From contig JAJEKV010000020.1 of assembly GCA_021234155.1 (NCBI GenBank), positions 1,909,275 through 1,973,274 on the forward strand: 64,000 nucleotides of DNA. Direction: 5' to 3'. This stretch comes from Isoetes taiwanensis (Eukaryota > Streptophyta > Lycopodiopsida > Isoetales > Isoetaceae). The notes beneath the pieces were generated by a model. That model saw nothing but the letters and a program-made list of their open reading frames with translations, ran no database searches and was not told the DNA's origin. Below are positions 11,511-43,997 of this stretch, piece after piece. How positions within the stretch are numbered: the stretch's first letter is position 1; each line of letters begins with the position of its first letter. Both the position numbers and the translations under genes were made by a program.

Positions 11511-11622
11511 GAGAAATTTCACTCACCTTGAAATTTCAGAAGGAAATTTCCAGCTGACCTGGCGGCGCCACCACGTCAGCTCGAAATTTCCTTCTGAAAT
11601 TTCAACGGTGAGTGAAATTCTC
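11511..11622. repeat. long foldback inverted repeat upstream of the IRG-like gene
   Basis: Two 48-base arms (11511-11558 and 11575-11622) are near-perfect reverse complements, sharing words such as GAAATTTCAGAAGG / CCTTCTGAAATTTC and CAGCTGAC / GTCAGCT, around a 16-base GC-rich loop containing GGCGGCGCC. It starts about 307 bp upstream of the GTPase ATG. It could be a foldback element, a cruciform or hairpin-RNA source, or part of the promoter. Sequence alone does not decide. Confidence 0.85.
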
Positions 11623-14289
11623 CGACGAAATTTTATCTATCTTAAAATTTAGCCCGTTCTTGAGCTGATGTAGCCAAATTTAGAGTTCGAGCAGCCAAAT
11701 TTCTGATACAATCTCTGTCTATGGCTGCCAGAAGAAGCCCTGGTTCTGTCTATGGCAGCTAGTGGAAGCCCTGGTTCTGGTATAGATCACAACTGCACTG
11801 TAAGCAATGCCTATGGAGTATGGCCAAATCGAAGTCTGTGTAGAACAGCTGAAGTTGCATACCTTAAAATCGAAGCAAAGATTGAGTTGCATCCTCAAAA
11901 CCGAAGCAGGTATTGCTTACAGAGTGAAGATTGTTTCCGGCGTTTGCATCCTGGCTTCTATCCCTGGCTTGCATGAAACGGAGATGAAGAAGCAGGGACT
12001 ATGCAGAAACAGAGTAAAAGGCGGCGAAGCAGGAATTGTGCAGAAACACTAGAAGGAGGCGCCGCCCAAAAACGCCGCCACTTCAACAGAAAATTTCGTT
12101 TGATAAAATCTTGTCGAAATCGGGCGAAATTTTAAGGTAGTTAAAATTTCGGGTTTCCTTATACTTTCACCAGAGATTCTGACACTAGAATCTGTGAAGC
12201 ACCATTATTGAAACAGAAAGTCTAATTGTCCTATTCTCTTCCTCGGGGTTTGCATTACCCTTAGAAGTATATACCTACGATGCACTTACGTATACATGAA
12301 ATTAATTAATTTATTTTTTTTTACAAGGACCCTGAAGGTCGTACACCTATCCTTGGAAGGAATTACATCCTTACCACGGTTTAGTTAAGATCTTAAATAA
12401 GCATTACCCTGGAATCTTGCATAATTCTTGACTCCTTTAATGCATACAGTTAAGTTAACTATCTTAAGGTAATATTCCCACGTTAACATTATAGTAATAT
12501 TGGATATATTAGTTCCAATAGTATTACATTTAACTGATGGTTCTGATAACTTCAAGGCCTTTAAAATATACCTTCATACTATTATCGAGACCATAATTAT
12601 AATCTAGAAAATACTGTCGTTGATTTCTCACTCAATGCAAAATGCCTAGATTCTTTATATACAATATGGTTGCATCAGCGGTAAGATATGAAGGAACCAA
12701 TATGGGGAAATACCATAAAGATAATAATGACAAAATAGAAGCCAGAACCTGATCAAAGGCCTCTATTGCTCTTTTTTGTTCAGCGACGGAGTTGTTGTGT
12801 CTCCGTGGAGGCTGTTTGCTACCTTGAATTTCTTCAACCTATCTCATAGCACCACTTCAAAACCATGAACGATCGCTTGCACACACTATAAAACTGCAGA
12901 GTTATAAACACATCTCACAAACTTCATAGTCCTTGAAAAACAAACTCAGTTGCGAAGACATGAAACAATCCTTGCATTCTGCAAACCTACATCAGAACAA
13001 TGCAATCAACCATAAACTTAATCATGGAAAGGTTGTTATTGCCATCTGCCATGTTCATCTATCTCTAAGAAGCTTCGTAAAAAAATTGGGCACAACCAGA
13101 AAAGAAACTATCATGTAGATTGCAAATTAAGGCTTGAGAGTTTACCTCAAACATGCGAATATCAGGTCTACAATGGATGTGGTGAAAGCCCGTTCAAATT
13201 TTTCCTTTTTTGGGTCAAAATTAACCAAGTTACGTTGTCTTTGCTGTAATGTTCTATGAATCTGATCCTCTTTGACGAATCATGATTGTATATTCCAAGT
13301 TAGAATCTAAATGTTCTTGTGGAGACGGGATCCTCTATGCGAGATTGGCATGTGCACTGATAAATCAGCTGCTGGAAGTGTCACAACCATAGAATCTTCT
13401 GAAACTAAAGGTAGAAATGTGGAAGATCTGTCACTGGAGTTTCTAATATTATATCTAAAGCAGCAAGATTTAAATAGTCAGAATAAATATATAAATATCT
13501 ATTATACCTTATTTTTTAGATTATCTTACAACTAAAATTTGTCAATAAACTTGATAATGAGCCTCTCGGGTCAGATGTACCCATGATGCCACACAAAGAA
13601 ATATGTTTTTTATTATAAGTATTACTTAATGACATGCTCATTGCAACTACTGCAATTGCTGATGTAGCAGCTTCTACCTCTGCTTTGAACTCCACTCTCA
13701 TATCATGAAAGCATTATCATTTTTTTGCCTCTTCATTCTTAGTTAATGTAGCTTGCTTCTTTCTATGATCAAGTGATCCACAGATTGAGGCTAGTTAACT
13801 GGAGATACAAATGCTGCCAATGTAACTGCACCCATACCATGCCAAATGAAATCTCAATATACATTATTTCAGCACAGCATGGTGACCATAGCTTGGTAGT
13901 GACTCAGACTTTGATGCCAATATATGAAAAGATGTTCGAAATACCCCTCCATTTTGGCACATAAATTTTCAGCTTCTATTGTTGCAGATATTGCTACTTA
14001 CAGACACCTTCTGAAGTAGCAAGAAAACATATATATGCAGCTCCTCTAAGAGATTTTGTGAGAATCATGATGTCCAGATGTTCCAAATGTGACTGACGTG
14101 TTCCAGATACAGCAATAATTGTGAAACTATAAATCCATGGTATGTCGATTTTCACAATGGCATTGCCCAAAATGATAGGGTATGCATGAAAAACCCCATA
14201 ACAAAACTTAAACTCACCCAAAGGTGCCATAAAACCCCTATGTTCTTGGCAGAGATGAACGTTAAAAAAAGGCTCCTAGAAAAGCATGG
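11623..14289. other. intergenic DNA without supported genes
   Basis: No gene is supported. Near 11718-11780 a segment encoding S-P-G-S is duplicated (GAAGCCCTGGTTCTG occurs twice). Other ORFs here have no domain signal, and composition is AT-rich from 12.3 kb on. Element A begins at its end. Confidence 0.5.
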
Positions 14290-14294
14290 TCGAT

Positions 14295-15952
14295 GTGACG
14301 TTTCAAGTATTTATACGGTATACGTATAAATATATTGACACGTCACCCAGTATAGATACGCCACCATGGGGTATGGTAACCTAGGGGGTTGACCTAAAAG
14401 GGATTAAATTAGCTATGATCATTAAGGATAATAACCTATAATTAAGGAATTAATAATTAAAAAGGATAATTAAGCTAATTATGGTTTGGGAAGGCGCCAC
14501 CTGGCCAAACTCGATTGGCCAGCATAGTGAATGCTACTTTGATCCATTAAGGTGGATCACCACCCCCATATCAACCATAATTGACCAAGAGGAGTTGAGC
14601 GCCTACTTACCTTTGCCAAGCTGAGCGCCACCTTTACCCAGCTGAGCGCCACCCTTGCCTAGTACTTGTACCTGTGTAACCAGAGCTGAGCATCGAGTCC
14701 CAGAAGGATGGAGGCACCAAACGACCAAACGATAACGGGTCCAGCAGGAATACAGGTGGGTGGTTGTGTAGCTTGGGAATTCTATGGTAGCGCCCTGTTG
14801 GGCACTTGTTGTGTTGTTTTGTCTGTTCTCTCTGTGTTTTACTCGTAGGAACTAACCCTTGATTGTAAAGGTAAGTTCTCTTTATATTCTGATTCTTGTT
14901 TTGCTCTCAAAGGATGGATTGATAGTTCTTTGCATAGTCTTACTCTGGAAATGGGGGAACTAAGGGGGGTAGAGACCTCTGAGCTCATGTACGCTAGTAT
15001 GCTCCTAGATAGAGCCCTGTAATATTCCCATTAGATGCGGCCTGTGTACAAGAGACCACCGGGTCGTAGATGCTATGGTCTGGCTTAGCACCAGAGAAGG
15101 GACACAGTGGTGAAGTGGGGGTGGGGTCTTGCACGAACATAAAAGGCTCCTGAGACTCCTACAGTGGGCTAGGCCTGATAGCCGGTCACGTAGAGGGCCG
15201 GGTATGGGTTTGACACTCCCTGGGTGTAGAGGTGTGATCCGTATGGAGCATCTTGCACTTTGAGTAGATTTAGGGTGAGTAAGTTGGGTACAGATGCGGG
15301 GGTCGCTGATGCGGCATGTATTCTCTAGCTCACCCATGGAAGCACTGTGATCCTGGAAGGGGACGCTTCCCCGACCTGCCTCATCGGACCGGGGCGTCAT
15401 GAACCCTGGAGTAGACTCAAAAGGGTGATACCTTGAGTTTGTGTCTCCGAAAGGCTATAGCGAAGCCATAGCGTGGATCGACCCATCTGCAAAGTGTGCA
15501 TAGGAGGGGCGGATGGAGTGGACAACCCTAGCCGATGTTCTATGCCAGCCAACGCCATGCCAAGACTCGGTCTGCTGATCTCTTGAGGCCCAGCCGTCAG
15601 TCGATCCTCACTGGAGTCTGAGCCGGGGTAGACCCTGTGGTTTGGGGTGTTTTCTTAGTTTTAGATGCATATTCTTTGCCATTGGTATTTGGATGGATGC
15701 GCCACTCTTCGTGGTGGTTATTTATATATATAATTTATGCTGTGTGCTAACCCTTGTATTCATGCTTCCGCGACGTAGGAGCCCATCGAAGGCGTGGGCC
15801 GAATGACACCTCCGTGCCCTTCACTCGAGCATCTCTACGTAGATGGCCCGGGTCAGACGGAGGGCCCTGCTCATGGCGAGATGGTCGCCATGGGAGGGGA
15901 AAGTCCCCGTATGTATACGGCTGGGGGTCGTATATATTCAGGGAGCGTCACA
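14295..15952 (+). repeat. element A 5-prime LTR
   Basis: It is 1,658 bp, starts TGTGACGTTTCAAG and ends GGGAGCGTCACA, and matches 31145-32825 over its whole length. Several blocks (near 15045, 15366 and 15495-15645) also recur in diverged form in the LTR of element C. ORFs read across it on either strand recur in both LTRs and are chance frames. Confidence 0.95.
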
Positions 15953-15953
15953 G

Positions 15954-15966
15954 TGGTATCAGAGCC
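15954..15966 (+). promoter_or_regulatory. element A primer-binding site (initiator tRNA-Met)
   Basis: TGGTATCAGAGCC lies one base after the LTR end. It is complementary to the 3-prime end of plant initiator tRNA-Met, the usual primer for Ty3/gypsy and Copia minus-strand synthesis. Confidence 0.92.
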
Positions 15967-15968
15967 GT

Positions 15969-15988
15969 GATTTCGGTTACTCGAAATC
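15969..15988 (+). other. post-PBS hairpin of element A
   Basis: GATTTCG (15969-15975) pairs with CGAAATC (15982-15988) around a six-base loop, and AGCACTGACC follows. Element C has a hairpin at the same place with a different but still complementary stem, followed by the same AGCACTGACC-type word. This argues for a conserved RNA structure in the leader. Confidence 0.6.
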
Positions 15989-16469
15989 ATAGCACTGACC
16001 AAACCCTAACTCGCTAGTTCGGTAGTCAGGAGAGAAAGTTTAAGCTAGAGTGATTGTTTGGCTCTCTGATGTTTGGTTTTGTGCTAGGTTAAGGTAATAG
16101 AATGTAAGTTCTTAGGAAGTTTAGGGCGACTGGAAGACCCAAGTTTGGAAGAGCTATAACTTTTTGTAGGAAGCTCGGATGAAGGCAAAAATGGCTTCAA
16201 TGGATCGGGCACCTCCCAAATACCCCAGGGGGCATGTCTCCCGAGGTCAAAAAGACAACAGGCTGCCGAAAAATCGAAAGGGGCGCTGCTGTCCTCGGAG
16301 GTGTTTATTTTGAAAAGTTAAGGCCGTATAAGTAACGCAGCGCCCCATACGGTCGCGCGTATTTTTATACGCGCCCGTTTTAAATTTTTTTTTTTTTAAA
16401 AAAAAATAAGCCTCTAGCGCCCTAGCGCCCTAGCGCCCTCTAAGCCCTAGCGCCCTTGCCTACCCTTCA
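15989..16469 (+). other. element A 5-prime leader, first part
   Basis: Non-coding leader. It has a T/A homopolymer block near 16383-16409 and tandem AGCGCCCT units at about 16414-16456. It resumes after the nested element at 21980 and leads into ORF1 at 22044. Confidence 0.6.
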
Positions 16470-16474
16470 ACGCC

Positions 16475-18144
16475 TGTGACGGGCCTGGCCAGTTAACCTT
16501 TATGGTAACTGGAGATCCCATCAATCTCGACCATTGGATCTACTTAAGCTTAAAAACTTAAGAAATTAACTCATGCATCTGCAACAATAACACTTAGGTA
16601 AAGAATTTAATCTTTGTACATATTCTAAGGTTCCAAACATGTACTTGCCCATTACTCAGCAATATCCCCGCACACTATGAATGATCTTAATAATTGTAAC
16701 TTCAAGCCCATATATAATAATAATAATAGTAATAATAATCAAGTTTATTGAATAGCAATCCACACACTTCCACTCTCGCCTTTCCGAAGCTTGGCTACTT
16801 TCCGGAGCATCTCACACCTCTGCTTACACCATCAACCACGGGGTTAGTCACATGGACTAAGTGGGGATCGGGGATCTAGGATATATCTTAAAACAATCAC
16901 CACAAAGCCTTAACTTAGAACAATAACTTAGCCTTACCGTAGCCCTCGCCCACCGCAACCCAGGTTACTTAGTCCAACAAGCATAATCACAATGCATAAT
17001 TACACCAAGCATGACCATTGCAACTTAATTCCAACATTAAAAACACATATACAATAACCAAGCTCATAGCATCAACATTGCAACCAATATTCCTCTGGTC
17101 CGAGCAAGGTCAACTCCTACCGATCGGGCCGCGGACATAGAGGCGGGGTAACCACGTGTACACACACCCATCCACGCCAAGCGCCCAAAGATTGGAGGAC
17201 CACTTATCCGTGCATGACGTTGTACCATATGGTACCAACGCCCGATGTTCAAATAATACCATAGCACTGCAATAACCATGAGTCTAGACCATCGCACCTA
17301 GACTCGCCCCGAGGTCTATATCAAAGAATTATACTACACATAGATCACAATACTATGAATTCCACCCAATATCAATTAGGCACATTTCCATATCAAATTT
17401 ACCTTAGAAATTCCATAATTTACACCTCATGCAACAAAGGAAATCCTCATATAAACATTACTATCTCTACCATGCAACATGCAATGCCCTGCTTAAGCAA
17501 AATACAACCTTCACTAATATCTTATTACTTTTAACTAGATCAACTTCCTTCAAATTACTACTTATAACCTTAATGACGGTGGCTTCCATAACCCCTTAAC
17601 TAGTTTATTGAATTGGTTAATATGCTCGCTATCCATTAACCATGCATGCCTATTCTATTCTATTCATGACCATGCTCATATGATTTAACTCCAAGTTTAT
17701 ACTACGTTCAAAGCAATCATTATTAAATCAACACAGCTATACAAACACTAGAAAACCCCGGTGTAAGGCTTGATCCCCACTGGAATCCCGCTTTGCTTCC
17801 TCTCAGGCTCCCAAAGAACGCCTCCCGGATCTCTCTGCAGACACAACTCGCTCCTTCAACAATCCATCTGCAATCTATCTCCTTCCGAATGCTTCACCAT
17901 CACATAAAAGACTTCTTTCCCCATGGAAAACTCCTTCCCCCTAAGAAATCAAGAATAATATTGTTGCACTTATATAACCTAGCAATGCCCTTGCATGCAT
18001 GCATGCATACACTGCATGCATGGACACATTGCATGCATGTATTCCTAGCACATAATCATTTATTTTACCTTGAAAATGCACTCTTATATAATGGCAACGT
18101 TACTTACATCTCAATGTTGGTGCTAGGTTGCTAGGTCCGTTCTG
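16475..18144 (-). repeat. element N 3-prime LTR (minus orientation)
   Basis: It is about 1,670 bp and nearly identical to 20311-21979. The outermost three bases at its internal edge read CTG where the other copy has ACA. Mismatches with the other copy cluster at GC-rich spots. It contains TAA-rich and GCATGCATGC microsatellites. Confidence 0.9.
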
Positions 18145-20296
18145 ATCTCTCCTCCAAAAATTCAACCCATGTCCTCATGGGTGCATCTTAGAGCACTCAT
18201 GAAAAATCTAGTTTGTATCTCCCTTTGTGACATCTTCATTGGAACAAACTCAACCATTGATCTAAATTTTTTTTTTATAGTCTGCCTCCTTAATTACTCG
18301 GGTCTCTTCCCTTTATGCTTTCACATCTTAATCCTCAATTCAACATACTCCCAAATGAATACAATTTTGTCCCTTAGAACTGACCCATCCTTGTCAAACA
18401 CAATTGCTTAGCCTTCCAATCCAAGATGATGCATCTCCAAACTTGAAAATTCAAAGCTAGCTTCATACAAGTAATTTAAGCTAAAGGAAAGATACATATT
18501 AGATAGCTCCAATGCACGACCCTTCTAACTTTCAATTTAACATACCGCCAAGTCTAGAACTAACTCAAATATTATGAGTATACTACATATCCAATTCAAT
18601 ATAATAAACATAATGCGCTTTAACGAACTTTTCATAAAGAAGGTAATGCCCATAGAAAAAAAAACCCACCATTCCAAAGAGATACTCAGGTCGAACTAGA
18701 TATGTAATCTCTTGAGACTTCTTGGGTGGCCAAATCCAAAAAGTAACAAGCAAAATACATAATCAAGTCCCCATGCGGGTATCTTATAACTAGGTATGCT
18801 TAAGTTGATACAAGGGATCCCATAAGAATTATAACCCATGGTACGTAGAATTCCTCTGAGTTCATCCAATGACATTGAAGTATCCTAGGCTATACACTTG
18901 GCCTCTATATTTAGCCTACTTCCATACATATTACCCCATCACACTTTGGTTAGTCTTTCAACAAGATTTTATAGGCATCAATTGTCAGTTAATTTCGATG
19001 AAGCTCTTACTTCATGTATTTCGTTCACAACTTCAATCCTTTGATCAGTATCCTTAATCAAGTAATGCAATCACCATCCCTCCATTAATTTACAATCACT
19101 TCTAGCATGCCAAATAATTACAATACATGGAAGCACCATTACTAGATGTACTTACAACTCTTCTATTACGTTCTAAGATTTTCAAAAAATGGCACTTCCC
19201 CATGTCTATACATTCCCCTCTGCCTTTATCTCATGTCCGGGCCTTATCGACAACTCTTTCGCTCAATTTCATGGTTCACCTACTACCACGATTAAATATG
19301 TTATTCCTCTATTCATCGTCTTCTTCTTCCTTATCCATAAGATAGATAACATTGTTCAATCTTGGCCAATCAATTCTTCAATCTGCCATAATTTAAGTGT
19401 ATATCATTCTCTAAATATAAATCGTAACCCGACCACTTTGTTCCATTAAAAGCTTTCTTATACTTCAAGAAGTTTTTTTCAAGGCCAAGAACTTTTTCAA
19501 GGCTATCACCGACTATTCTAGCCATAACCCTAAGGCCAACAACTTTATAGACCTCAAGTAGGACCATGATGTAATCATGACATTTCCTTCTACGTCACAC
19601 ATCCGCTATTTACACATGAGCTTCAATCGACTATCACGCCAATCTTATTTTATAAGCATATCTAAGCATTCTCAAAACTTGTCTTACAACCACCGTGTTT
19701 GTAACCTTATCCCACCATAGCCCAGAATGCTATCAACTTAGCAACTTATTGTTATTTCACCACTTGGATAGCAATATATAGATGCTTTGGTTTTCTCAAT
19801 TTTTAGCTTCAAAAGGATGCACCTAACATCACATCAAGAATCTTATTCACCCGATGGTGAGATGAACCTTCCCCTGAATATCATAGGCATTATATATCAT
19901 GCAATTTGCTTATTCTAAATTTTCTTGCCACCGTGAGTATGCTACTACGAGATCACATCTACATTATAAGAAGTGGTTACCAAAGTGAAACGCAAATACC
20001 GTAACTTAATCTCCCTCAAGCATCACTTCCATGCTATGCGCACATTGGCAACCCTAAATCAAAGTTAGCCCCTTGATGAAGTACATTTTTCTAGCTTATC
20101 TGCTTTGCAGGATAGAAAATCAACCAAGATTATAGAAATTCCATGTAATCAATTTCACATACCTTCATAAAACAATTTGTCACGCCTCCTCTAAGGCCAT
20201 CATCTCCACATATATTCAATTGAATACTATTAGCATAATCCAACAACCTCAACTTGAATCTAGACTTCGTTATCATACATCCAAGGATCCAACTAT
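18145..20296 (-). other. element N internal region, non-coding
   Basis: No gag, protease, RT or integrase motif is visible on either strand. ORFs here are short and unsupported. This is the signature of a large non-autonomous derivative. Confidence 0.7.
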
Positions 20297-20308
20297 GCTC
20301 TGATACCA
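20297..20308 (-). promoter_or_regulatory. element N primer-binding site
   Basis: The minus strand reads TGGTATCAGAGC directly after the LTR end CGTCACA plus two bases. This is the same initiator tRNA-Met primer site as in elements A and C, and it fixes the orientation of the nested element. Confidence 0.88.
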
Positions 20309-20310
20309 AC

Positions 20311-21979
20311 TGTGACGGGCCTGGCCAGTTAACCTTTATGGTAACTGGAGATCCCATCAATCTCGACCATTGGATCTACTTAAGCTTAAAAACTTAAGAA
20401 ATTAACTCATGCATCTGCAACAATAACACTTAGGTAAAGAATTTAATCTTTGTACATATTCTAAGGTTCCAAACATGTACTTGCCCATTACTCAGCAATA
20501 TCCCCGCACACTATGAATGATCTTAATAATTGTAACTTCAAGCCCATATATAATAATAATAATAGTAATAATAATCAAGTTTATTGAATAGCAATCCACA
20601 CACTTCCACTCTCGCCTTTCCGAAGCTTGGCTACTTTCCGGAGCATCTCACACCTCTGCTTACACCATCAACCACCTGGGTTAGTCACATGGACTAAGTG
20701 GGGATCGGGATCTAGGATATATCTTAAAACAATCACCACAAAGCCTTAACTTAGAACAATAACTTAGCCTTACCGTAGCCTCGCCCCTGCAACCTAGGTT
20801 ACTTAGTCCAACAAGCATAATCACAATGCATAATTACACCAAGCATGACCATTGCAACTTAATTCCAACATTAAAAACACATATACAATAACCAAGCAAT
20901 CATAGCATCAACATTGCAACCAATATTCCTCTGGGTCTGAGCAAGGTCAACTCGGCTGATCAGGCCAGTGACATAGAGGCGGGGTAACCACGTGTGTACA
21001 CACCCATCCACGCTGCGTCCAGCATTGGAGGACCACTTAACTGTGCATGACGTTGTACCATATGGTACCAACGCCCGATGTTCAAATAATACCATAGCAC
21101 TGTGCAATAACCGCGAGTCTAGACCATCGCACCTAGACTCCGGCCCCAGAGGTCTATATCAAAGAATTATACTACACATAGATCACAATACTATGAATTC
21201 CACCCAATATCAATTAGGCACATTTCCATATCAAATTTACCTTAGAAATTCCATAATTTACACCTCATGCAACAAAGGAAATCCTCATATAAACATTACT
21301 ATCTCTACCATGCAACATGCAATGCCCGGTGCTTAAGCAAAATACAACCTTCACTAATATCTTATTACTTTTAACTAGATCAACTTCCTTCAAATTACTA
21401 CTTATAACCTTAATGACGGTGGCTTCCATAACCCTGCTAACTAGTTTATTGAATTGGTTAATATGCTCGCTATCCATTAACCATGCATGCCTATTCTATT
21501 CTATTCATGACCATGCTCATATGATTTAACTCCAAGTTTATACTACGTTCAAAGCAATCATTATTAAATCAACACAGCTATACAAACACTAGAAAACCCC
21601 AGGTGTAAGGCTTGATCCCCACCTGGAATCCCGCTTGCTTCCTCTGTGCTCCCAGCAACGCTCCCAGATCTCTGCACACAACTCGCTCCTTCAACAATCC
21701 ATCTGCAATCTATCTCCTTCCGAATGCTTCACCATCACATAAAAGACTTCTTTCCCCATGGAAAACTCCTTCCCCCCAAGAAATCAAGAATAATATTGTT
21801 GCACTTATATAACCTAGCAATGCCCTTGCATGCATGCATGCATACACTGCATGCATGGACACATTGCATGCATGTATTCCTAGCACATAATCATTTATTT
21901 TACCTTGAAAATGCACTCTTATATAATGGCAACGTTACTTACATCTCAATGTTGGTGCTAGGTTGCTAGGTCCGTTACA
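20311..21979 (-). repeat. element N 5-prime LTR (minus orientation)
   Basis: It is 1,669 bp. On the minus strand it starts TGTAACGGACC and ends CCGTCACA. It pairs with 16475-18144. Confidence 0.9.
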
Positions 21980-22043
21980 ACGCCGCCCATCCCAGTTTGA
22001 GCGCCCTACCTTTTCTCTCTTGCTGTTCCTTGCCAGTGCGACC

Positions 22044-23380
22044 ATGCCGCGTTTCAAACTTACTGTGGACCTGAAGAAGATGAACGAGTTCCAACTGTTT
22101 AGCGCGCTAGTCGACCATCTTGCAGACGACAGCCCTACAGTTGATACCGTTCTTGATCTCTTCGTGAAGCACTTCATTGAGGGTCGAAGAATTCCTTACC
22201 CTATCTTCCACTTCAATGAGCGCTTCCTTATGAAGTTGAACGAGGCAGGTGAGGCCTACACCCTTGTGGAGCAGCCTGACCGTGCATGGGCCGTGGTTAA
22301 GTTCTATCCCTCAGCAGGACCAGATGAGGACCCCGCCGAGCTTATCCGGAATGAGGCTCAAAGGATCATGCACCTTGCCAGGGTGGAAGACTTGCAGCAA
22401 ATAGCTAGTGCCCCACCAGAAGCACGGAAGAACCGCTTCTACTACCTGGGTAAGGGCTGGGTACTTATGTACCAAGATTGTTATAATCTCCCTACCTTCT
22501 CTTGGAATGAAGACCTCAACAGCTTCATTTTTGAGAACGTCCCGCCTAGTTTTGACCAAGCCCGCATGGACCTCGTGCAAGATGATATGCGAGCACGGCC
22601 GGACATGTACCACACGGAGACAAAGAAGCCCGGGCTGCTGAGAGAGAGAGGCTTCGCAAGGAAGAGGAGGATGGCCAAAGTCAGCAGAGCGGGAACCAAC
22701 AGGTGGATCAGCAGGACGACCAGCAGAATCCAGATGTTGATCAGCAGCAGAACCCGGATGTTGGACAACAGCAGGATCAAGCTGTGGGTTAGAACGCTGA
22801 CCCCCAGGGAGACCAAAACATGGGGGATAATGTGGACCAACCGGGAGCTTCGAGCGGCCCTAAGAATAGGAAGGCAACGGAGTGGGGTAACCGGACGTTG
22901 AAGAGAAAGAGTACCAAACCCGTGAAGAGTGGGGTGAACTATAAGACCCAACTGCAGAAGGATGCCACTATAGCCAAGAAGACATCGGCTCAGAGACGGG
23001 AGCAGATCGTTCAGCGGGCACAACATCCAACAACCGGCGGAAAATCCATTCCGTCGCTCAAGGCAACCCTCAAGCCACGGAAGCCCCACAGATTTCGACC
23101 GGGCACAGTAGCACTTCGGGAGATACGTAAGTATCAGAAGTCTACTGAGCCATTGATTCGTCGGCTTTCCTTCCAACGGCTTGTACGGGAAATTGCCCAG
23201 GAATTTAAAACCGATTTGAGGTTCCAAGCCTTTGCAATCCTCGCACTCCAGGAGGCTGCCGAGGCTTACCTCATCGAGATTTTGAGCGACGCCAACCTTT
23301 GCACCATACACGCAAAGAGGGTCACCATCATGCCCAAGGACCTCCAGCTAGCACGATGGATCCGAGGGGAGTTCCGGTGA
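22044..23380 (+). pseudogene. element A ORF1: novel domain, Q/D-rich linker and histone H3 core
   Basis: The ATG at 22044 opens a frame of about 190 residues with no family I recognise. At about 22620 the frame shifts. The downstream frame continues with a charged helix, a Q/D/N-rich linker and a TAG at 22790, then reopens (ATG 22820) to the stop at 23380. From 23081 it encodes [37 protein letters not shown], then [12 protein letters not shown] and Q-L-A-R: a complete histone H3 fold (alphaN to alpha3), about four fifths identical to plant H3 by eye. Loop 1 is of canonical length, so it is not CENH3-like. The N-terminal H3 tail is replaced by a basic region that still has R-K-S-T and T-G-G-K words. 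I infer it was one protein of about 445 residues, now broken unless the lesions are sequence errors. Confidence 0.88.
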
Positions 23381-23623
23381 CTAGGCGATCGTTTTTTTTT
23401 CCGTTGTAAAATTTTTGTAACTTATCTATGTACTATTCCCATTTTTTGGGTTGTGAATATAAAAATATCTTTTTAAATGTAAATCATTAATTAAATAATA
23501 AATTTTAATAATAATTTTGGGAAACGTGCCAAAAAGTATAAAACCCCTTTTTGGCCATTAGGGTTTCATTTTCCTTTCTTGCTTTCAGCGCCTCCTTTCT
23601 CCTCCTTTGCGCCTTCACCCCTC
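23381..23623 (+). other. spacer between ORF1 and ORF2 with promoter-like words
   Basis: After the ORF1 stop comes an AT-rich tract with AATAAT/AATATAAA words like a 3-prime UTR. Then AGTATAAAACC lies at about 23535, followed by GGGTTTCATTTTCC and ORF2. This could be a separate polyadenylation and TATA-type start region, suggesting ORF2 has its own transcript. The call rests on word similarity only. Confidence 0.3.
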
Positions 23624-25014
23624 ATGGCTCGCCCAACCTTGCAGCAGTGGTATATGGACGGAGAGCATTGGGATCCTGCGGTTCCCTTTGATCTTCTTCA
23701 CCCCTACCTGCTCCAACAGGTAGATCTTATTTCTAACATGCAGGCACATCCGGATTACGCCGCCTTTCTTCAGTTTTACTGTGAAGAGATTGTACCTGCA
23801 TGTGTTTACAATGATGATGATGCGCAGCTCTATCTTGACTTCCACACCCTGCACCAGATGTTAGGGGGTGATGAGCATGCCCGGAATGTCGTCAAGGGCA
23901 TAAGGAGGCGGGGGACAGACCTCCCTATTGTTACAATAGATTGGGAAACTTGTTTTGAGGCCCGATTTGCACTGGCCATCATCATGGACGAGTACATTGA
24001 GGACGAGGAGATAGCTGCTGAGCATTCCTCGACGCCTGTACCTTCTGACCCGGAAGACGACGAAGTCGTCGACGAGCAGGATTTTGTAAGGTGGAAGGAA
24101 CTTGCCACTGAAGCCCCTGCCAGCCGACAGAAAGCCCTCAAGCTCGAAGGGCTAAACCTTCTTCCTACAGTACTCTTGAATAACCAAGAGTACCTGATTT
24201 TTGAGAACATTATGTGGGTCTACCGCGTCATTACTGGGATCCGCCGCAAAAAGATAGAGGTCCTCTATGACCTTGCTGAGAGTATTGCCAAGATGACTTC
24301 ATTGACTTTACCACACCGGTTGTGAATCCCTCACCAGTCGAGCACTTATTGGTATATCAGCCCGAAGAACAAGAGCCCGTTGAGACTCTTTTGTCACTTC
24401 GGCAGTTCTTATTGAGTGACACACCACAGCCTCCAGAGGAGCACTTTGCAGCTCAGACGCGGCCCCATCTCGCAGACCCGCCCTTGCAAATCACCATGGG
24501 AGAGGTGGATCAGGACGAGGAAGATCTTTGGGACACCAAGGTCAGCCTTAGGGATGACAAGGAAGACGAAGAGGAGGAGAAGATCCCCGTGAACTTGGAA
24601 AAGGAAGCGGAGACCTCCAGAGATCCTCAGATTAGGGCAATGGGCAACCATGTGCCCCGGTTCTTTCTCTCAGCCTTTCGGCAAGGAGAGGTGTTGTTCT
24701 TCTCCAAGAACCTAGGGCCTTCTTCTGCAACTTCTTGGTGGGTGCTCCGAGTCATATCCACTTCAGCGGGCCATAAGAAGATTGATTATCACGCCACCAC
24801 TATTACTTTGGTCCGTAGGGATTTGGCTATAGCAGCATTGGGGGATGTGGCGGGCTGCACTAATATGCGCCTCCTTGTGGCGGCACCTTTGGCCACTTGC
24901 TTGCCACCGGAGGCAGCATCTCGAGCCGCCCTCTCCGCTAGCCCCAGTACCACTTTGATGCGTTATCGTCCACCTCCTCAACCTATGGACGAAGAGGAGG
25001 GACCTAGTTCCTAG
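23624..25014 (+). pseudogene. element A ORF2: acidic accessory protein, function unknown
   Basis: The ATG at 23624 begins M-A-R-P-T-L-Q-Q-W. The first frame ends at 24325, but the natural continuation (D-D-F-I-D-F-T-T-P-V) is in the frame that runs to 25014, so a 1-nt type shift lies near 24290-24300. There are two acidic stretches (near 23970-24075 and 24500-24610). I recognise no family. Near its end, 24790-24849 reads H-A-T-T-I-T-L-V-R-R-D-L-A-I-A, which lines up with the loop2/alpha3 of H3 ([15 protein letters not shown]). The preceding residues match only loosely. A second, degenerate histone fold is possible but unproven. It lies between the H3 ORF and gag. Confidence 0.55.
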
Positions 25015-25235
25015 ATAATTGTATTATACATTTTGCATTGAGAGTAGTTGGGAAGTTTTGGTTGGCAATTTCTTTAGCCATTTTGTAAGTTATGATGGTC
25101 ATCCTCTTATTAATTGGGACTATTGTATTAATGAATATAATCAAAATTGTTTTCTTCCATGATGGGTTCTTCTATCTATTGGAATTGAGGGTATAACAAA
25201 ATTGTTCGAGGTTCTATATTCACTTCTATCGTCTT

Positions 25236-25697
25236 GCAGAAGAGACACTCGAGGAGTACGAAGAGAGGATTACCGATCAAATAAGGAGGGATGATCCCGG
25301 GCCGCCCGACCAGGATTATGGCCAAAGATATGGCGAGTACCCGGAATGGGACGAAGGTTACGAGATGGAACCCGCGCCACCAGGGGAGCCCTATGATCCA
25401 GCCAAGGGGATGGAGGTAGTTAACATCCTCAGAGAACGGGCCTTCGACGACCTGAAATAGACCCTTCGCCGCACATGGGACTATTGAGATATGTCCAGGC
25501 ACGAAGCTTTCGAGGATGCCAACGACCACTTGTGGCAAATCTTCTATGCGTTAAGGAGGCTTTTCAATCTCCTTATTATTAGCCCCACATGGGACTACCA
25601 ACCTGTTATCGTCCAGGCCTGGGCATGTTACAAGCTCGTCAGAGCTGTACGTGAAAGTGTTCGCTACTCAATCCTGTACCCTTTCGCGAACCCCTAG
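25236..25697 (+). pseudogene. element A ORF3: small acidic accessory ORF with in-frame stops
   Basis: In one frame an acidic, proline-rich segment (E-E-T-L-E-E-Y-E-E-R to E-R-A-F-D-D-L-K) is followed by TAG at about 25458 and TGA at about 25485. The frame then continues from ATG 25491 with an amphipathic W-Q-I-F-Y-A-L-R-R-L-F segment up to 25697. CACATGGGACTA occurs on both sides (25472 and 25589). I recognise no domain. Preceding and following AT-rich spacers resemble UTRs, as with ORF1 and ORF2. Confidence 0.4.
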
Positions 25698-25919
25698 GTC
25701 CAGACCCCTCAGTTCTGTTTTGCTATGTTTCAGTATGACTAAGGAAGTGCCCATGTATAAGATCCACCTGTGTATTATATAACCTTAAGTTGATAACTAC
25801 CTTTTGTGTGAAGTTCTTCAATGTAACAGTTATTTGACTCATAATTAAAATCTTTCCTTTCGTTTTTTTATTTACTCTTTCTTTGGTACTACCCAAAACG
25901 ATCTTGTTTGTAAAACTTG
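25698..25919 (+). other. spacer between ORF3 and gag
   Basis: AT-rich, non-coding, with AATTAAAAT-like words. No gene is visible. Confidence 0.4.
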
Positions 25920-27257
25920 ATGTTGCTGTTGCTCAATATAGACGGTGCACGCAACGCCGCCTGGCAGACACCCTCAAATGCCAGTAGATTAACACCAGAA
26001 CAGGAACTGATGTTAATAAAAAGACAGTTAGGCGGGTTACAGGCTTATGTGTTGCATGCCAACCCACCACAGCATGTACAAGAAGACGGACCGGAGTTAC
26101 CTCCGCTACCGCCTAGTCCACCTACACAGCAGCCGTCCCCACCTGAAACTAGCCCTATACCTACACAGAGGAGGCCCCATTCTAAACGTCGTCGGAGTTC
26201 CTCTAGGGACAGTGTCACCTCCTCACAATCAGCCACTTCTGTGTCTTCTGAATCGTCGGTATCATCCGGTGACCATGCAAAGCGCCGGGACAAGGAGTAC
26301 CGCAAGACGGTTGATACAGCCATAACTAGTATATGGAAGAATAGGAAACTGGCCCAGTTTGATGGGAAATCTAGAGGCGGATTGAATGCCGAGTCCTGGT
26401 TGGACGAAATGAAGGAATTTAGGAAGTCCTATGGCATGACAGAAAAGGATACAGGGAAGGTTGCCACCACCAACCTTACAGGAGCTGCCCGTATTTGGTG
26501 GAAGGGCTATGCTAGAGCCAAGCATCTGGATAGAAGCAGGTGCAAGTTTAAGAAGTTTGCTAAAGCTTTTAAGTCGCATTATGTGCCTCGTGCGCATAAA
26601 TGCCAGCAAATTCAGACCTTTTACAGGTTAGAGAAGAAGGGTATGTCGGTTCAGGCTTACACGGATGAGTTTATGCGCTTGAGACTGTATGTACCAGGTA
26701 TGAATGAAAAGAGGGCAGTGGAAGGCTATATTGAAGGATTGGCCCCATCAATCAAACGAATGGTTAAGGCCATAGACCCGAAATCAGTGGCAGAGGCGGA
26801 GGCTAAAGCATTGAGCCTCGAGGAGGACACACCAAGGAACCAGTATCAGCGTCCTGCTCCTTATTCGCAGCCACGGCCGTCCACACCTTACAAACCCCGC
26901 TCGCCAAGTCCGGGGCCCTCTCAGCAGAACTCTTATGGCCGCCAGGAAAGGAAAGTCACCTTCAGCACGCTCGATAAACAGAACAATGTCGATAAGGAAG
27001 TTCGGAACCTCTTACAGTCTATTCCTAAAGAGGCCCGAGAACAGCTCCGCCGAGATAAGGCATGCTACAGGTGTATGCGGCCCGGGCACTTCATGCAGAA
27101 TTGTCCTTATGTCACGCAGACTGCCCAGCTGGCCATGGCCGACCTCGATTGGGACGATCTTGAGTCAACACTACCTGTCGAGGAGGACGCTCCCGAGTAT
27201 ATTCACGGTGCGTCTCATATCCTTGCAGCTATAGAAACCGGCAATGCTGAAAGTTAG
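25920..27257 (+). CDS. gag: element A gag polyprotein
   Basis: The ATG at 25920 opens 445 codons. The order is an N-terminal leader, a proline/serine-rich and S-R-rich segment, a retrotransposon gag domain (W-L-D-E-M-K-E-F, then A-A-R-I-W-W-K-G-Y and Y-T-D-E-F-M-R-L), a proline-rich stretch, and one zinc knuckle C-Y-R-C-M-R-P-G-H-F-M-Q-N-C (CX2CX4HX4C). It is the capsid/nucleocapsid precursor that packages element RNA. It ends in a single TAG, after which pol continues in the same frame. That could be readthrough or a point mutation in an originally fused gag-pol. The gag frame itself is intact. Confidence 0.9.
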   Translation: MLLLLNIDGARNAAWQTPSNASRLTPEQELMLIKRQLGGLQAYVLHANPPQHVQEDGPELPPLPPSPPTQQPSPPETSPIPTQRRPHSKRRRSSSRDSVTSSQSATSVSSESSVSSGDHAKRRDKEYRKTVDTAITSIWKNRKLAQFDGKSRGGLNAESWLDEMKEFRKSYGMTEKDTGKVATTNLTGAARIWWKGYARAKHLDRSRCKFKKFAKAFKSHYVPRAHKCQQIQTFYRLEKKGMSVQAYTDEFMRLRLYVPGMNEKRAVEGYIEGLAPSIKRMVKAIDPKSVAEAEAKALSLEEDTPRNQYQRPAPYSQPRPSTPYKPRSPSPGPSQQNSYGRQERKVTFSTLDKQNNVDKEVRNLLQSIPKEAREQLRRDKACYRCMRPGHFMQNCPYVTQTAQLAMADLDWDDLESTLPVEEDAPEYIHGASHILAAIETGNAES

Positions 27258-30200
27258 CCTGCTGTCATTTCCACCATAGGTCAAGTAGACAGTAAGCCTT
27301 TTGTAATTCTTATGGATACGGGAAGTACCCATAATTTTGCTTCTCCTAGAATGGCCCAGGTCTTACAGCTGGAAACCTTGAGGTCCCGACCGAGGCCTGT
27401 CACTCTAGCCAGTGGTAGGGTCAGACATACTCATGGCCGTCGCATCAATCTTAAGATGCAGTTGTCAGGTGCACCAGTTGTTATGGGTGCCGAGTTGATG
27501 GATGTTGGCAAATACGACCTCATTGTTGGTATGGAATTCTTGGCATCTGCAAAGGCCAACATAGACTGCGAGAAACGGGAAGTTACCTTCAACGCAGCTA
27601 ATGGAGCCCGTGTAACTATAAAAGGTGAACCATTCAAACCTATCATGCAGTCTATGTCCATCAGACAGTTAGATAAAGTTATACGCAAGGAAAAGCTCCT
27701 CTGCGTCCTCAGACTTGCCTCCATTGAGTCAGATAATAAGCAGAACCGTATGAGTCCCCCAGAGTTGGCAGAGCTTAAGAAGCAGCTTCAGGAGTTATTA
27801 AACCTAGGTTTCATTCGACCTAGTGTTTCGCCTTTTGGCGCTCCTATTCTTTTTGTTAAGAAAAAATATGGCTCCTTGAGGATGTGTATTGATTATCGGC
27901 AACTCAACAAGCATACCATCAAGAATCGCTATGCTTTGCCTAGAGCAGATGATCTAATGGATCAGTTGCAAGGGGCCAAGTATTTCTCAAAGATTGATCT
28001 ACGCTCCGGATACCATCCGATAAGGATTAAAGAGGAGGACATCCATAAATCTGCTTTTCGCACTAGGTATGGGCATTATGAGTTTACAGTTATGCCTTTT
28101 GGATTAACTAATGCCCCAGCAACTTTCATGCGACTAATGAATGATGTCTTCCGACAATACCTGGATGATTTTGTTGTCATTTTTTTTTACGACATTCTTA
28201 TCTATAGTAAGACCCTAGAGGAGCATGAGAAAAATCTTAGAATGGCCCTACAAAAGCTAAGACGTCATCAGCTCTTTGCCAAGTTCTCTAAGTGCAAGTT
28301 TGCCACTCCGAAGGTTGATTATTTGGGCCATGTCATCTCGGCAGAGGGAATTGCTACAGACCCAGCAAAGATAGAGGCCGTAAGGGAATGGCCTATTCCA
28401 GGAAATGTTTTCGAGGTCCGAAGTTTCCTGGGCTTAGCGGGATATTACCGGAAATTTGTAAAGGATTTTGCAAGGATTGCAGCACCCCTTACAAATCTTA
28501 CAAAGCATGAGAAGGTGAAGGATTGGATGGAGCACTGGAATGCAAAGGTTCAGGGAAGTTTCCAGCAGCTTAAAGATGCCTTAACGTCAGTACCAGTTCT
28601 CACATTGCCTGACCCTGAGAAGGATAAACTAGTGGCGACAGATGCCAGTAAGATTGCCACCGGTGGAGTCCTAATGCAGGAGGGGAGAGTTATTGCCTAT
28701 GATTCAAAGAAAATGAATGAAAACGGAGCAACGATACCCTACCCATGACCAGGAATTGTTAGCCATTATCCGTGCCCTGCGGATATGGAGACACTACCTT
28801 CTTGGTAGAAGATTCCAGTTAGATACAGATCATCAAAGTCTCCGTTATTTATCCACCCAGCCGAATCTCAACCTCCGTCAGAGGAGATGAATGGAATTTC
28901 TGGAGGAATATGATTTTGAGATTATGTATAAGCCTGGCAAGCACAATGTGGTTGCGGATGCATTGTCACGCCATCCCTTGGTAACGCGAACCCATTGTAA
29001 TGCAATTTCTACACTCACCAGTGAGTTTGGGAAGCAGATAGAATGGACCTTGGCCACGGATCCCGAGTTCTGTGAAGTTTGGGATAGTTTGGCTAAGGAA
29101 GCTCGCACAGATAAGGAGCGTGAAGCTTTCTGTTCGTATAAGAAAGAGGGCAACTTGTTATATTACAAAGACAAGTTGTGTGTAACTGAGACTTCGGGAG
29201 TGCGTAAGCTAATCCTCCACGACACGCACAACAGCCCTATAGCTGGCCATGCAGGGTTTATGAAGACCTACTTTAAGATTCGCTCCAGCTATTTCTGGCC
29301 TTCGATGAAAAAGGACATTGCCAGATACATTAAGCAGTGTCAGGTGTGTCAGCAAACCAAAGCTGAGCAGTTAAGGATTCCAGGCGAGTTGCAACCTCTG
29401 GATGTGCCCAACGCCAAATGGGAAGTGATAACCATGGATTTCATTGTGGCCCTTCCACGTACTCTCCGTGGATATGATGCCTTAATGGTAGTGGTCGACA
29501 AATTGTCCAAAATGGCGCATTTCTTGCCATGTCGTACCACAGATACAGCCTTTGATACTGCTCTGCTTTTTGCCAAGGAGATCTTCAGGTTACACGGAAT
29601 GCCACGAGTTATTATATCCGACAGGGATCCCAAATTTGTAAGTGCATTCTGGAAAGATTTCTTTGCCAGGTCATCCAGACCAAGCTTGCTATGAGTACAG
29701 CGTATCATCCTCAAACAGATGGTCAGACAGAACGTACCAATCGCATTATAGAGGATATGCTGCGAAGTTATGTGTGGAGTAAGCAATCACAATGGGCTGA
29801 CTATATTTATCTGGTCGAGTTCGCCTACAACAGCATGAAGCAGGAGTCTTCCAGAATGTCTCCCTTTATGATAAATTATGGCTACCAATGTCTAACTCCA
29901 GATACATGGCACAACCCCGTTTCGAAAGTGGAGGTTTCTCAACAACTCCTCCTGGAGATGCAAGCTCTGGTCGAAGAAGTTCGTGGTTACTTGTTAGCTG
30001 CACGCAGTCGTCAAAAGAGTGTAGCCGATAAGCACAGAACCCCACGCGTTTTCCAGGTGGGTGAATCAGTTTGGCTTAAGATTAAGGTCAAACAAGCCAA
30101 GCTTAAGATTGGCAACTGCAAGAAGTTGGCACCCAAATGGGCGGGACCGTTCAAAATTATTGAGCGTGTTGGAGAACAGGCATATCGCTTGGATTTGCCG

Positions 30201-30566
30201 CCCCGCTTGAAGATCCACAAGGTCTTTCACGTGAGTCTTCTGAAACAACACACCCCTGATCCAGAGGAGGTTTTGGATACCCCAACCCTCCTAGAAATGA
30301 CAGAGGAGCAGCTGGAAATAGTGCCTGAAGCTCTTCTTGATCGTGCTTATAAACAAACCAGAAGGACTCAAATGTTGCAATACTTGGTTAAGTGGAAGCA
30401 CTTACCAGTTGAGGATGCTACTTGGGTGATGAAGATAGACCTTGACAAGCACTATCCGGACTTCATGCGGGAATCTCAAGGCCGCACCATCAACGATGCT
30501 ATCAACCCCGCAGCCGGCGGTAAGCTTGAAAGCTTGATTGCCAAGAGTAGCGCTCCACAGGGGTAG
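27258..30566 (+). pseudogene. pol: element A pol: protease, RT, RNase H, integrase, chromodomain
   Basis: In order: protease with D-T-G-S-T-H-N-F at 27315; RT from about 27770 with M-C-I-D-Y-R-Q-L-N and [10 protein letters not shown]; RNase H with A-T-D-A-S at about 28638; integrase with an H-H-C-C zinc finger (C-Q-V-C at about 29341) and catalytic Asp, Asp and Glu in T-M-D-F, S-D-R-D-P-K-F and Q-T-E-R; then a C-terminal chromodomain. Lesions: the RT F-x-D-D box reads F-F-Y-D-I-L, losing one catalytic Asp; a frame shift at about 28720-28740; a TGA at 28888 (W expected); a frame shift at about 29668-29690. It is therefore dead as read. The family reverse-transcribes and integrates the element. 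Confidence 0.93.
30339..30465 (+). other. chromodomain at the end of element A integrase
   Basis: The frame reads Q-Y-L-V-K-W-K-H-L-P-V-E-D-A-T-W-V and then an amphipathic helix to H-Y-P-D-F. This is the core of the chromovirus chromodomain, with both tryptophans of the fold. In this family chromodomains can bind methylated H3 tails and steer integration to heterochromatin. Here it occurs in the same element as an H3 core ORF. Confidence 0.88.
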
Positions 30567-31144
30567 ATGCATCGTAAATCATAATAGTCACCGATGATGA
30601 GATCACCTTGGTGTTCTCTAGGAAGTGGTATACTGTCAATGTTGACATCACCACGACATAGTTGATAGGCCGCGCTCATTTCGGCTATAATGGGAACTTC
30701 ACCATTCCCTATGCTGCAGTGAATTGCAAACCATAGACATGATAGGTTCCCAGGTAGATAGCGTTTTCTTTTATTTATTATAAGGGGGTGGTCCCTTCAA
30801 CCACAATCTAATTATATATACTGATATGCTGACATGTGCAGGCCAGTGAGTAGTACGTGACCTGCCCATGTTAGAGGGTTGCTGATGGCCCGAACTTTTC
30901 AGTTTTATTTTATCTACACGTCTTGTTTTGTTATTACTCTAATGTTGATATTGGACCTCGGTCCTTGAATTTCTTGATTATGATAATCATGTGAAATGCA
31001 CCTCGGTGCTTAAACTGTTTTAAACTTTAAAGTTTTTAATATATTACCTTCGGAAATAAGGAATTATCTTCCTTCATAATGTGATTTCCTATATTTGTAT
31101 CTAACCCAATGCTGAGGACAGCATTAATTCTAAGGAGGGGAGAC
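30567..31144 (+). other. element A 3-prime non-coding region and polypurine tract
   Basis: No gene is visible. It ends with AGGAGGGGAGA (31133-31143), a purine tract right before the 3-prime LTR, which would prime plus-strand synthesis. Confidence 0.8.
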
Positions 31145-32825
31145 TGTGACGTTCCAAGTATTTATACGGTATACGTATAAATATATTGACACGTCACCCA
31201 GTATAGATACGCCACCATGGGGTATGGTAACCTAGGGGGTTGACCTAAAAGGGATTAAATTAGCTATGCTAATTTAACCATTAAGGATAATAACCTATAA
31301 TTAAGGAATTAATAATTAAAAAGGATAATTAAGCTAATTATAGTTTGGGAAGGCGCCACCTGGCCAAACTCGATTGGCCAGCATGGTGAATGCTACTTTG
31401 ATCCATTAAGGTGGATCACCACCCCCATATCAACCATAATTGACCAAGAGGAGCTGAGCGCCTACTTACCTTTGCCAAGCTGAGCGCCACCTTTACCCAG
31501 CTGAGCGCCACCCTTGCCTAGTATTTGTACCTGTGTAACCAGAGCTGAGCATCGAGTCCCAGAAGGATGGAGGCACCAAACGATAACGGGTCCAGCAGGA
31601 ATACAGGTGGGTGGTTAGTGTAGCTTGGGAATTCTAGGGTAGCGCCCCCGTTGGGCACTTGTTGTGTTGTTTTGTCTGTTCTCTCTGTGTTTTACTCGTA
31701 GGAACTAACCCTTGATTGTAAAGGTAAGTTCTCTTTATATTCTGATTCTGGTTTTGCTCTCAAAGGATAGATTGATAGTTCTTTGCATAGTCTGATAGTT
31801 CTTTGCATAGTCTTACTCTGGAAATGGGGGAACTAAGGGGGGTAGAGACCTATGAGCTCATGTACGCTAGTATGCTCCTAGATAGAACCCTGTAATATTC
31901 CCATTAGATGCGGCCTGTGTACAAGAGACCACCGGGTCGTAGTTGCTATGGTCTGGCTTAGCACCAGAGAAGGGACACAGTGGTGAAGTGGGGGTGGGGT
32001 CTTGCACGAACATAAAAGGCTCCTGAGACTCCTACAGTGGGCTAGGCCTGATAGCCGGTCACGTAGAGGGCCAGGTATGGGTTTGACACTCCCTGGGTGT
32101 AGAGGTGTGATCCGTATGGAGCATCTTGCACTTTGAGTAGATTTAGGGTGAGTAAGTTGGGTACGGATGCGGGGGTCGCTGATGCGGCACGTATTCTCTA
32201 GCTCACCCATGGAACCACTGTGATCCTGGAAGGGGACGCTTCCCCGACCTGCCTCATCGGACCGGGGCGTCATGAACCCTGGAGTAGACTCAAAAGGGTG
32301 ATACCTTGAGTTTGCGTCTCCGGAAGGCTATAGCGAAGCCATAGCGTGGATCGATCCATCTGCAAAGTGTGCACAGGAGGGGCGGATGGAGTGGACAACC
32401 CTAGTCGATGTTCTATGCCAGCCAACGCCATGCCAAGACTCGGTCTGCTGATCTCTTGAGGCCCAGCCGTCAGGCGATCCTCACTGGAGTCTGAGCCGGG
32501 GTAGACCCTGTGGTTTGGGGTGTTTTCTTAGTTTTAGATGCATATTCTTTGCCGTTGGTATTTGGATGGATGCGCCACCCCTCGTGGTGGTTATTTATAT
32601 ATATAATTTATGTTGTGTCCTAACCCTTGTATTCATGCTTCTGCGACGTAGGAGCCCATCGAAGGCGTGGGCCGAATGACACCTCTGTGCCCTTCACTCG
32701 AGCATCTCTACGTAGATGGCCCAGGTCAGACGGAGGGCCCTGCTCATGGCGAGATGGTTGCCATGGGAGGGGAAAGTCCCCGTATGTATACGGCCAGGGG
32801 TCGTATATATTCAGGGAGCGTCACA
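31145..32825 (+). repeat. element A 3-prime LTR
   Basis: It is 1,681 bp, starts TGTGACGTTCCAAG and ends GCGTCACA, and is highly similar to the 5-prime copy. Differences include a small insertion near 31275 and a 24-bp tandem repeat of the TTCTTTGCATAGTCT segment near 31780-31815. Confidence 0.95.
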
Positions 32826-32830
32826 GTCGA

Positions 32831-35662: not shown

Positions 35663-35665
35663 TTT

Positions 35666-35681
35666 TGGAGGTTCTACCGAG
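35666..35681 (+). promoter_or_regulatory. element B primer-binding site
   Basis: TGGAGGTTCTACCGAG lies three bases after the LTR. It starts with TGG, complementary to a tRNA CCA end, but differs from the tRNA-Met site of A, N and C. I cannot name the tRNA with confidence. Confidence 0.55.
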
Positions 35682-43992: not shown

Positions 43993-43997
43993 GTTAG

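Follow-up and report, generated by a model that had tools for sequence, protein, structure and literature searches.

The balance of the evidence leans towards a histone H3-derived gene, carried by a large Ty3/gypsy family of chromodomain retrotransposons in Isoetes taiwanensis, that makes a tail-replaced H3 variant acting on chromatin. That the H3 reading frame is a gene of the element, held by selection, is close to certain as judged from its many copies. The gene lies in E1, a complete Ty3/gypsy chromodomain element at positions 14294-32825 of the window, by which we mean the whole stretch of 64,000 nucleotides that was analysed. The features of E1, with the strand given after the coordinates, are as follows.

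14289-14293, no strand: 5′ target-site duplication GTCGA; joining the flanks gives the empty site
14294-15952, +: 5′ LTR of E1, with TG...CA ends, pairing with the 3′ LTR
15954-15965, +: primer binding site TGGTATCAGAGC, adjoining the 5′ LTR
16475-21979, -: nested LTR element of another family, outside E1 proper, in the E1 leader between the 5′ LTR and ORF A
22044-22901, +: ORF A, predicted N-terminal domain of the H3-bearing protein, of no known family; its frame is continuous with that of H3 in 5 of 30 copies
22610-22819, +: Q/D/N-rich, charged linker that shares the H3 frame; the window's copy has a single TAG in it, at 22790-22792
22820-23080, +: basic, lysine-rich segment in place of the H3 tail (first 87 residues of the H3 ORF)
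23081-23377, +: histone H3 core (H3 residues 37-135, alphaN to alpha3), from PF00125 and identity to H3.1/H3.3
23624-24325, +: ORF C, no family assigned, optional in the family; not found in 5 of 30 copies, where gag comes soon after H3
24322-25014, +: ORF D, no family assigned, overlapping ORF C in another frame
25917-27257, +: gag (Ty3_capsid and Retrotrans_gag, from Pfam)
27312-30566, +: pol (protease, RT, RNase H and integrase, from Pfam), in several frames in the window's copy
30321-30467, +: chromodomain, type II-like
31132-31144, +: polypurine tract AAGGAGGGGAGAC, from the sequence
31145-32825, +: 3′ LTR of E1, pairing with the 5′ LTR
32826-32830, no strand: 3′ target-site duplication GTCGA, matching the 5′ one

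The original prediction had placed the H3 frame in a Ty3/gypsy element with clear 5-bp target duplications, and E1 has the TG...CA LTR pair, the primer binding site TGGTATCAGAGC (which we take to be of the tRNA-Met type), the polypurine tract, the 5-bp GTCGA duplication and the PR-RT-RH-IN order of that class, as well as the chromodomain at the C-terminus of the integrase (PF00385, E 2.7e-8) that marks a chromovirus. The predicted position of the H3 frame between LTR and gag was also correct, with the amendment that a nested element lies upstream of ORF A and that ORFs C and D come before gag. The two LTRs of E1 differ by 34 substitutions (27 transitions and 7 transversions) in 1651 aligned sites, for a K2P distance of 0.021. 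Positions 1 and 3 of the chromodomain cage are I and L, as read by eye from printed alignments to Chd1-type chromodomains and with the cage positions placed by the HP1 sequence and numbering; by this reading the first and third of the three cage aromatics of a type I (H3K9me-binding) chromodomain are missing from E1. ORF C encodes 233 aa in the window, but the open frames that contain it elsewhere reach 589 aa (best 150 copies of 4249 candidates), and because many of these frames are about 460-510 aa long, ORFs C and D are probably one gene in which D continues C. No match was found for ORF C in the PDB, for ORFs A, C, D or the H3 piece of the second element described below in NCBIfam, or in Rfam for the 64-kb window. 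The nested element is bounded by its own duplication, ACGCC, at 16470-16474 and 21980-21984, its LTR pair has a K2P of 0.033, a reverse-complement primer binding site adjoins its LTR at 20311, and its LTR has no match to the E1 LTR and leader. It consists of 1.67-kb LTRs with about 2.2 kb between them and probably represents a non-autonomous family, because no listed ORF there exceeds 113 aa.

The open frame at 22820-23380 encodes 186 aa, and its residues 88-186 (23081-23377) form the full H3 core. This agrees with the prediction of an H3 fold in this frame that starts at 23081 and runs from alphaN to alpha3. A Pfam search with the translated frame gave PF00125 at E 9e-41 and 139.4 bits, against a curated cut-off of 26.4, and the top PDB match was histone H3.3 (E 9e-49). 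All 99 core residues align without an indel to both plant H3.1 and H3.3, with 80 of 99 identical to each; a chance likeness to H3 was considered and rejected. The description of the frame as a near-complete H3 core therefore stands for the core itself, while H3 residues 1-36 are replaced and the full gene is longer, starting with ORF A at 22044. CENH3 has a longer loop 1 and a CENP-A-type core. Loop 1 of the E1 core is of canonical length, indicating that this H3 is not CENH3-like, and among 176 PDB rows the best 60 all belong to H3 types that are not CENP-A; CENH3 identity was rejected on the lack of any indel and on these rows, as had been predicted. The segment that replaces residues 1-36 shows no significant similarity to an H3 tail, since 1080 of 3000 shuffles scored equally high, and the canonical tail (ARTKQTARKSTGGK..., with K4, K9 and K27) is absent from E1. 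Three core residues of the window's copy (S66, T111 and W129) are private or rare within the family, position 66 being P in 48 of 52 copies, position 129 R in 48 of 52 and position 111 A in 28 of 30.

The H3 core appears to be one part of a longer protein. From about 22620 on, the true continuation of ORF A is in the H3 frame, and the window's copy is broken upstream of H3 by a frame change near 22620 and by the TAG at 22790-22792. Because a single frame of about 450 aa runs from the ORF A start (M[PS]RFKL) to the end of H3 in 5 of the 30 copies that were fetched, the encoded protein is predicted to be a fusion of an element-specific N-terminal domain (about 190 aa), the linker, the basic segment and the H3 core. 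ORF A itself had no match in Pfam, the PDB or the protein database (0 matches from 342 candidates). Its start, MPRFKLT, resembles MARTKQT in the pattern MxRxKxT with 4 of 12 identities, which was not counted as evidence.

Whether the H3 sequence is shared by the family was addressed in the plant's own genome, where a search with the H3 ORF (1,658,258,908 bases in 1110 contigs) gave 8801 candidates at a loose first look, a candidate count and not a copy number, of which the best 150 were scored. All 150 match the H3 ORF at 76-100% identity, and every match begins at or before residue 30, within the element-specific tail. Of the 30 copies fetched, 22 have the N-terminal domain of ORF A in the 1.5 kb before H3. 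After H3, 24 have all or part of ORF C and 29 have either ORF C or gag, the exception being L025, with neither within the fetched stretch. In five of the 30 (L014, L018, L027, L029 and L030), gag follows H3 without ORF C, and because these five occupy three places in a midpoint-rooted H3 tree, ORFs C and D were probably lost more than once; since H3 was the basis on which the copies were picked, little follows from this for the retention of H3 itself. ORF A was not found in L022, L023 and L024, and in the first two of these a piece of ORF C, HTLHQMLGGDE, is joined in frame to linker and H3; we read the three as a rearranged subfamily. Similar results were obtained at the bottom of the list, where ORF A was present in 9 and ORF C in 9 of the ten copies fetched from the 11 lowest-scoring of the 150 matches. 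Many copies carry frameshifts or stops in the H3-bearing gene.

The ends of ten copies, hand-chosen as high-ranking or long-framed, were also fetched. A 5′ LTR is present in the stretch for nine, and both LTRs are full in five (one 3′ LTR being in two pieces). These five have K2P distances of 0.020-0.051 between their LTRs and are flanked by target-site duplications, perfect in four (CAATC, GGTCC, TTGAT and GTGGC) and matching at 4 of 5 bases in the fifth (ACTGC/ACCGC), indicating that H3 moved with the element in independent insertions. In the remaining five the 3′ LTR is partial or missing within the stretch, hence no duplication could be assigned. An ascertainment by ORF C, in which the best 150 of 4249 candidates were scored and the top 37 inspected (E1 included), found H3 upstream of ORF C in 36 of 37 copies, or 35 of 36 without the query copy. 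Coordinate overlap with the H3 matches, done by hand, accounted for 24 of the 37, and the sequence of the 1.1 kb upstream for 12 of the other 13, some of which carry H3 in pieces (L070 at only 43% identity; L071 only as residues 119-186); L073, the thirteenth, has no recognisable H3 in its 1.1 kb upstream. The original prediction had named two outcomes that would speak against an element gene, namely other copies lacking H3 and a processed pseudogene with insertion boundaries of its own. Neither was observed, and H3 as a gene of the element is strongly supported.

Selection on the gene was examined across copies. The core gave a pairwise dN/dS (Nei-Gojobori type) of 0.105, the basic segment 0.177, ORF A 0.167 and ORF C 0.206, the H3 values being biased because the copies were picked by protein similarity; gag gave 0.52, a loose comparison from 6 copies and only 10 pairs. 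Less prone to this bias is a comparison of changes found in single copies, mostly post-insertion, with changes common to at least 3 copies, which were passed on by replication. In the core of the top 30 copies, singletons comprised 28 synonymous and 50 nonsynonymous changes (1 stop) and shared changes 40 and 7 (Fisher P 5e-8). In the 12 copies ascertained by ORF C and outside the H3 list, singletons comprised 42 and 90 (7 stops) and shared changes 32 and 7 (P 3e-8); in the ten low-ranking copies the counts were 34 and 26 for singletons and 48 and 7 for shared changes. Most singletons of this last set are synonymous, as would follow from the presence of old differences among them, and singletons are not a pure neutral class. 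For all 52 copies the core gave 30 and 125 (7 stops) against 118 and 26 (1 stop). The same direction was seen for ORF A (79 and 238 against 147 and 82), the basic segment (26 and 47 against 60 and 35) and ORF C (87 and 190 against 70 and 29). Copies are related by descent and not independent, so that the P values serve as indications only, but every set tested points the same way. Since shared changes are mostly synonymous and singletons mostly replacements, purifying selection most likely kept the H3 core and ORF A while the lineage replicated, before insertion. The case rests on this multi-copy test and not on a neutral simulation of the window's copy alone, which was weak (chance of no stop 0.32; conservative changes P 0.04).

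A characteristic set of residues is fixed or nearly fixed in the core. C110, H113, F87, E102 and S105 are identical in 52 of 52 copies, K56, K79, K115 and K122 are kept in 49-51 of 52, and P60, R64, A86, A107, F134 and R135 are found in 47-51 of 52. The E1 family, as represented by these copies, thus has its own constant set of differences from canonical H3. Compared with host-type H3.1 and H3.3, it shares the full core at 80 of 99 identical residues and without indels, but the tail is replaced, the core is fused behind a domain of about 190 aa and a linker, and changes at 60, 64, 86, 87, 102, 105, 107, 134 and 135 are family-wide.

A second, truncated element in the window, E2, is related to E1 but distinct and also contains H3 sequence.

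57331-58910, +: LTR of E2, the only E2 LTR in the window
58912-58923, +: primer binding site of E2, from the sequence
59631-59720, +: first ORF of E2, starting MARTKQTARK, which is canonical H3 residues 1-9 after M
59735-59855, +: 3.1 tandem copies of the 39-bp unit QVDQPNPNAEEEE within the E2 linker, encoding acidic repeats
60591-60728, +: diverged H3 alphaN/alpha1 piece of E2 (PF00125, E 6.1e-6, 26.9 bits against the cut-off of 26.4)

The E2 LTR matches that of E1 over 153 bp at 83.7% (E 6e-33), and a further 56 bp match at 78.6% across the LTR end, primer binding site and leader, while the E1 LTR and leader have no match to two other LTR families of the window. With no gag or pol seen, E2 is classed by its LTR. 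Its copy has stops and frame changes and ends at about 60719. The tail is limited to H3 residues 1-9, short of a canonical tail, and a K/E-rich stretch in another frame follows the acidic repeats. The linkers of E1 and E2 show a likeness that is no more than suggestive, its score being reached by 186 and 316 of 5000 shuffles. The H3 piece is 43% identical to E1 H3 over 46 aa, and its PDB matches are weak, the top two rows being fission-yeast CENP-A at E 0.006-0.007; the piece is too short and weak to be placed among H3 types, CENH3 included. Among the 1618 six-frame segments of at least 25 aa in the window, the H3 sequences of E1 and E2 are the only two that match the H3 profile at E 1 or below. 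Because two families hold H3 sequence at the same place, an old capture is suggested, though two captures are possible. A TATA-like box and a telo-box-like TTAGGGTT were seen by eye before both ORF C of E1 (23540-23624) and the H3-tail ORF of E2 (59522-59631), as if these two frames had internal promoters of their own.

A degenerate Ty3/gypsy gag-pol of another family (53740-56771), 40% identical over 244 aa to E1 pol, lies directly upstream of E2, and a further LTR element at 33452-43995 has LTRs of 2.2-2.3 kb (K2P 0.016) and a broken pol. Pieces of an interferon-inducible (IIGP) type GTPase gene occur on the minus strand at 10177-11204 (PF05049, E 5e-20), in what is a plant-like genome; a 114-bp hairpin with 91% self-complementarity lies at 11510-11623; and a SAC51-type bHLH match falls below its Pfam cut-off.

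What purifying selection establishes is the importance of the protein to the element, and no more than that; its role is more open to interpretation. The roles put forward in the original prediction, namely loading element chromatin with H3, changing silencing marks and marking targets, are candidates. The mechanism we favour, plausible but held at somewhat under an even chance, is that the H3 core of the fusion pairs with host H4 and enters nucleosomes, so that the tail-replaced variant would bring the element's own domain onto chromatin, with newly made element DNA or the sites of insertion as the most likely places of deposition. Nucleosomes without K4, K9 and K27 would be poor substrates for silencing that is based on the H3 tail, and fusion nucleosomes could hold element proteins on chromatin. 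Against this mechanism, P60, R64, A86, F87, E102 and S105 differ from host-type H3 in nearly every copy, and these departures may alter H4 pairing or incorporation. The E1 and E2 families need not use H3 alike, because E2 keeps the tail tip (K4 and K9) while its core piece has diverged.

Three other uses of the protein by the element were considered, each of them unlikely in our view. The protein might act as a decoy that binds H4 or the H3 chaperones (CAF-1, ASF1 and HIRA) and builds no nucleosomes, weakening silencing of the element; in the E2 form of this reading a free ARTKQTARK tail would be offered to H3 methylases and readers. The nine exact tail-tip residues that E2 retains beside a diverged core piece would fit such a role, as would the fixed or nearly fixed changes of the E1 family at 86, 87, 102 and 105, presumably near the end of alpha2. 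E1, however, is without the tail tip and most of its core is conserved, including K56, K79, K115 and K122, lysines that a chaperone decoy would not obviously need. We give a similarly low weight to H3-fusion nucleosomes as a targeting beacon or tether recognised by the integrase and chromodomain of the element, with the N-terminal domain and not the tail as the signal. The E1 chromodomain lacks the H3K9me cage, ORF A is under purifying selection, and the available part of PMC6317226 names no identified binding partner for type II chromodomains, all of which suit a tether, but 8 of 30 copies, possibly broken or non-autonomous ones, showed no ORF A domain in the 1.5 kb that precede H3. Also improbable, to about the same degree, is a selfish histone variant, by which the element would wrap its own DNA or insertion sites in tail-replaced H3 nucleosomes that host silencing through the H3 tail could not mark, and in which the type II chromodomain would read the H3 fusion, or the ARTKQTARK of E2, in place of host H3K9me.

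Readings in which the H3 sequence is of no use to the element fare much worse. A piece of host H3 captured long ago and retained by linkage as a passenger would be consistent with the stops and frameshifts of many copies and with the break upstream of H3 in the window's copy, but synonymous changes predominate among the shared ones throughout the sets tested, and H3 sequence recurs at the same place in a second family, making this reading very improbable. A processed host H3 pseudogene inserted by chance in the window's copy, for which similarity to H3 and nothing beyond it speaks, was rejected with near certainty, as the best 150 of 8801 candidates share the element tail, 36 of 37 copies ascertained by ORF C have H3, no poly(A) tract was seen by eye in the 260 bases 3′ of the H3 stop, no separate insertion boundaries were seen, and LTRs and target-site duplications surround H3 in independent insertions.

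E1 and its H3 can be set beside known systems. E1 shares with the plant chromoviruses (Tekay, Reina, Galadriel, CRM, Tcn1 and Chlamyvir) its LTRs, tRNA-Met-type primer binding site, gag-PR-RT-RH-IN order, chromodomain and 5-bp target-site duplication, but adds ORFs before gag, one of which ends in an H3 core. CENH3/CENP-A likewise joins an H3-type core to a foreign N-terminus, but the E1 core is without insertion. In the available part of PMC6317226 the extra ORFs of chromoviruses are said to diverge strongly from one another, and no mention is made of a histone ORF. Type II chromodomains are described in the available parts of PMC6317226 and PMC3350952 as lacking cage aromatics and as having no identified binding partner, and the E1 chromodomain is like them in missing two cage aromatics (by eye). 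Retrosat2, a large LTR element of rice and its relatives, has like E1 an extra ORF (ORF0) upstream of gag-pol, but in the accessible sections of PMC3485330 a faster evolution is reported for ORF0 than for ORF1, in contrast to the strong conservation of the H3 core in E1; this comparison is by description, and the main text of that paper has 0 occurrences of "histone". The word also has 0 occurrences in the available part of PMC6431247. Orchid Gypsy elements with an AlkB-type m6A demethylase resemble E1 in carrying a captured host domain, plausibly for evading host control, but theirs is an RNA demethylase and that of E1 a histone (available part of PMC9289625). The same source, as far as its available text goes, screened 121 angiosperm genomes and reports 15 extra domains at its threshold, and none of those named there is a histone. 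No histone-encoding retrotransposon was found among the best-ranked open-licence PMC literature matches. A protein-database search with P0001 matched mostly proteins with H3 in tandem (best 120 of 8000 candidates scored), and no relatives of the element were among the matches listed in the protein-database searches; gag gave 0 matches from 6204 candidates, and no relative was confirmed among viral contigs.

Extra ORFs in LTR elements are often unidentifiable, and here one of them can be recognised as an almost intact core histone that selection has maintained in a high-copy family, beside a chromatin-reading domain in the same element. Element copies may also be included in histone counts of plant genomes. 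The H3 fusion is a candidate partner for type II chromodomains (available part of PMC6317226), and if the selfish-variant reading were true it would answer what these domains bind. The finding suggests that a transposon can act on host chromatin by supplying a subunit of the nucleosome, which is directly testable.
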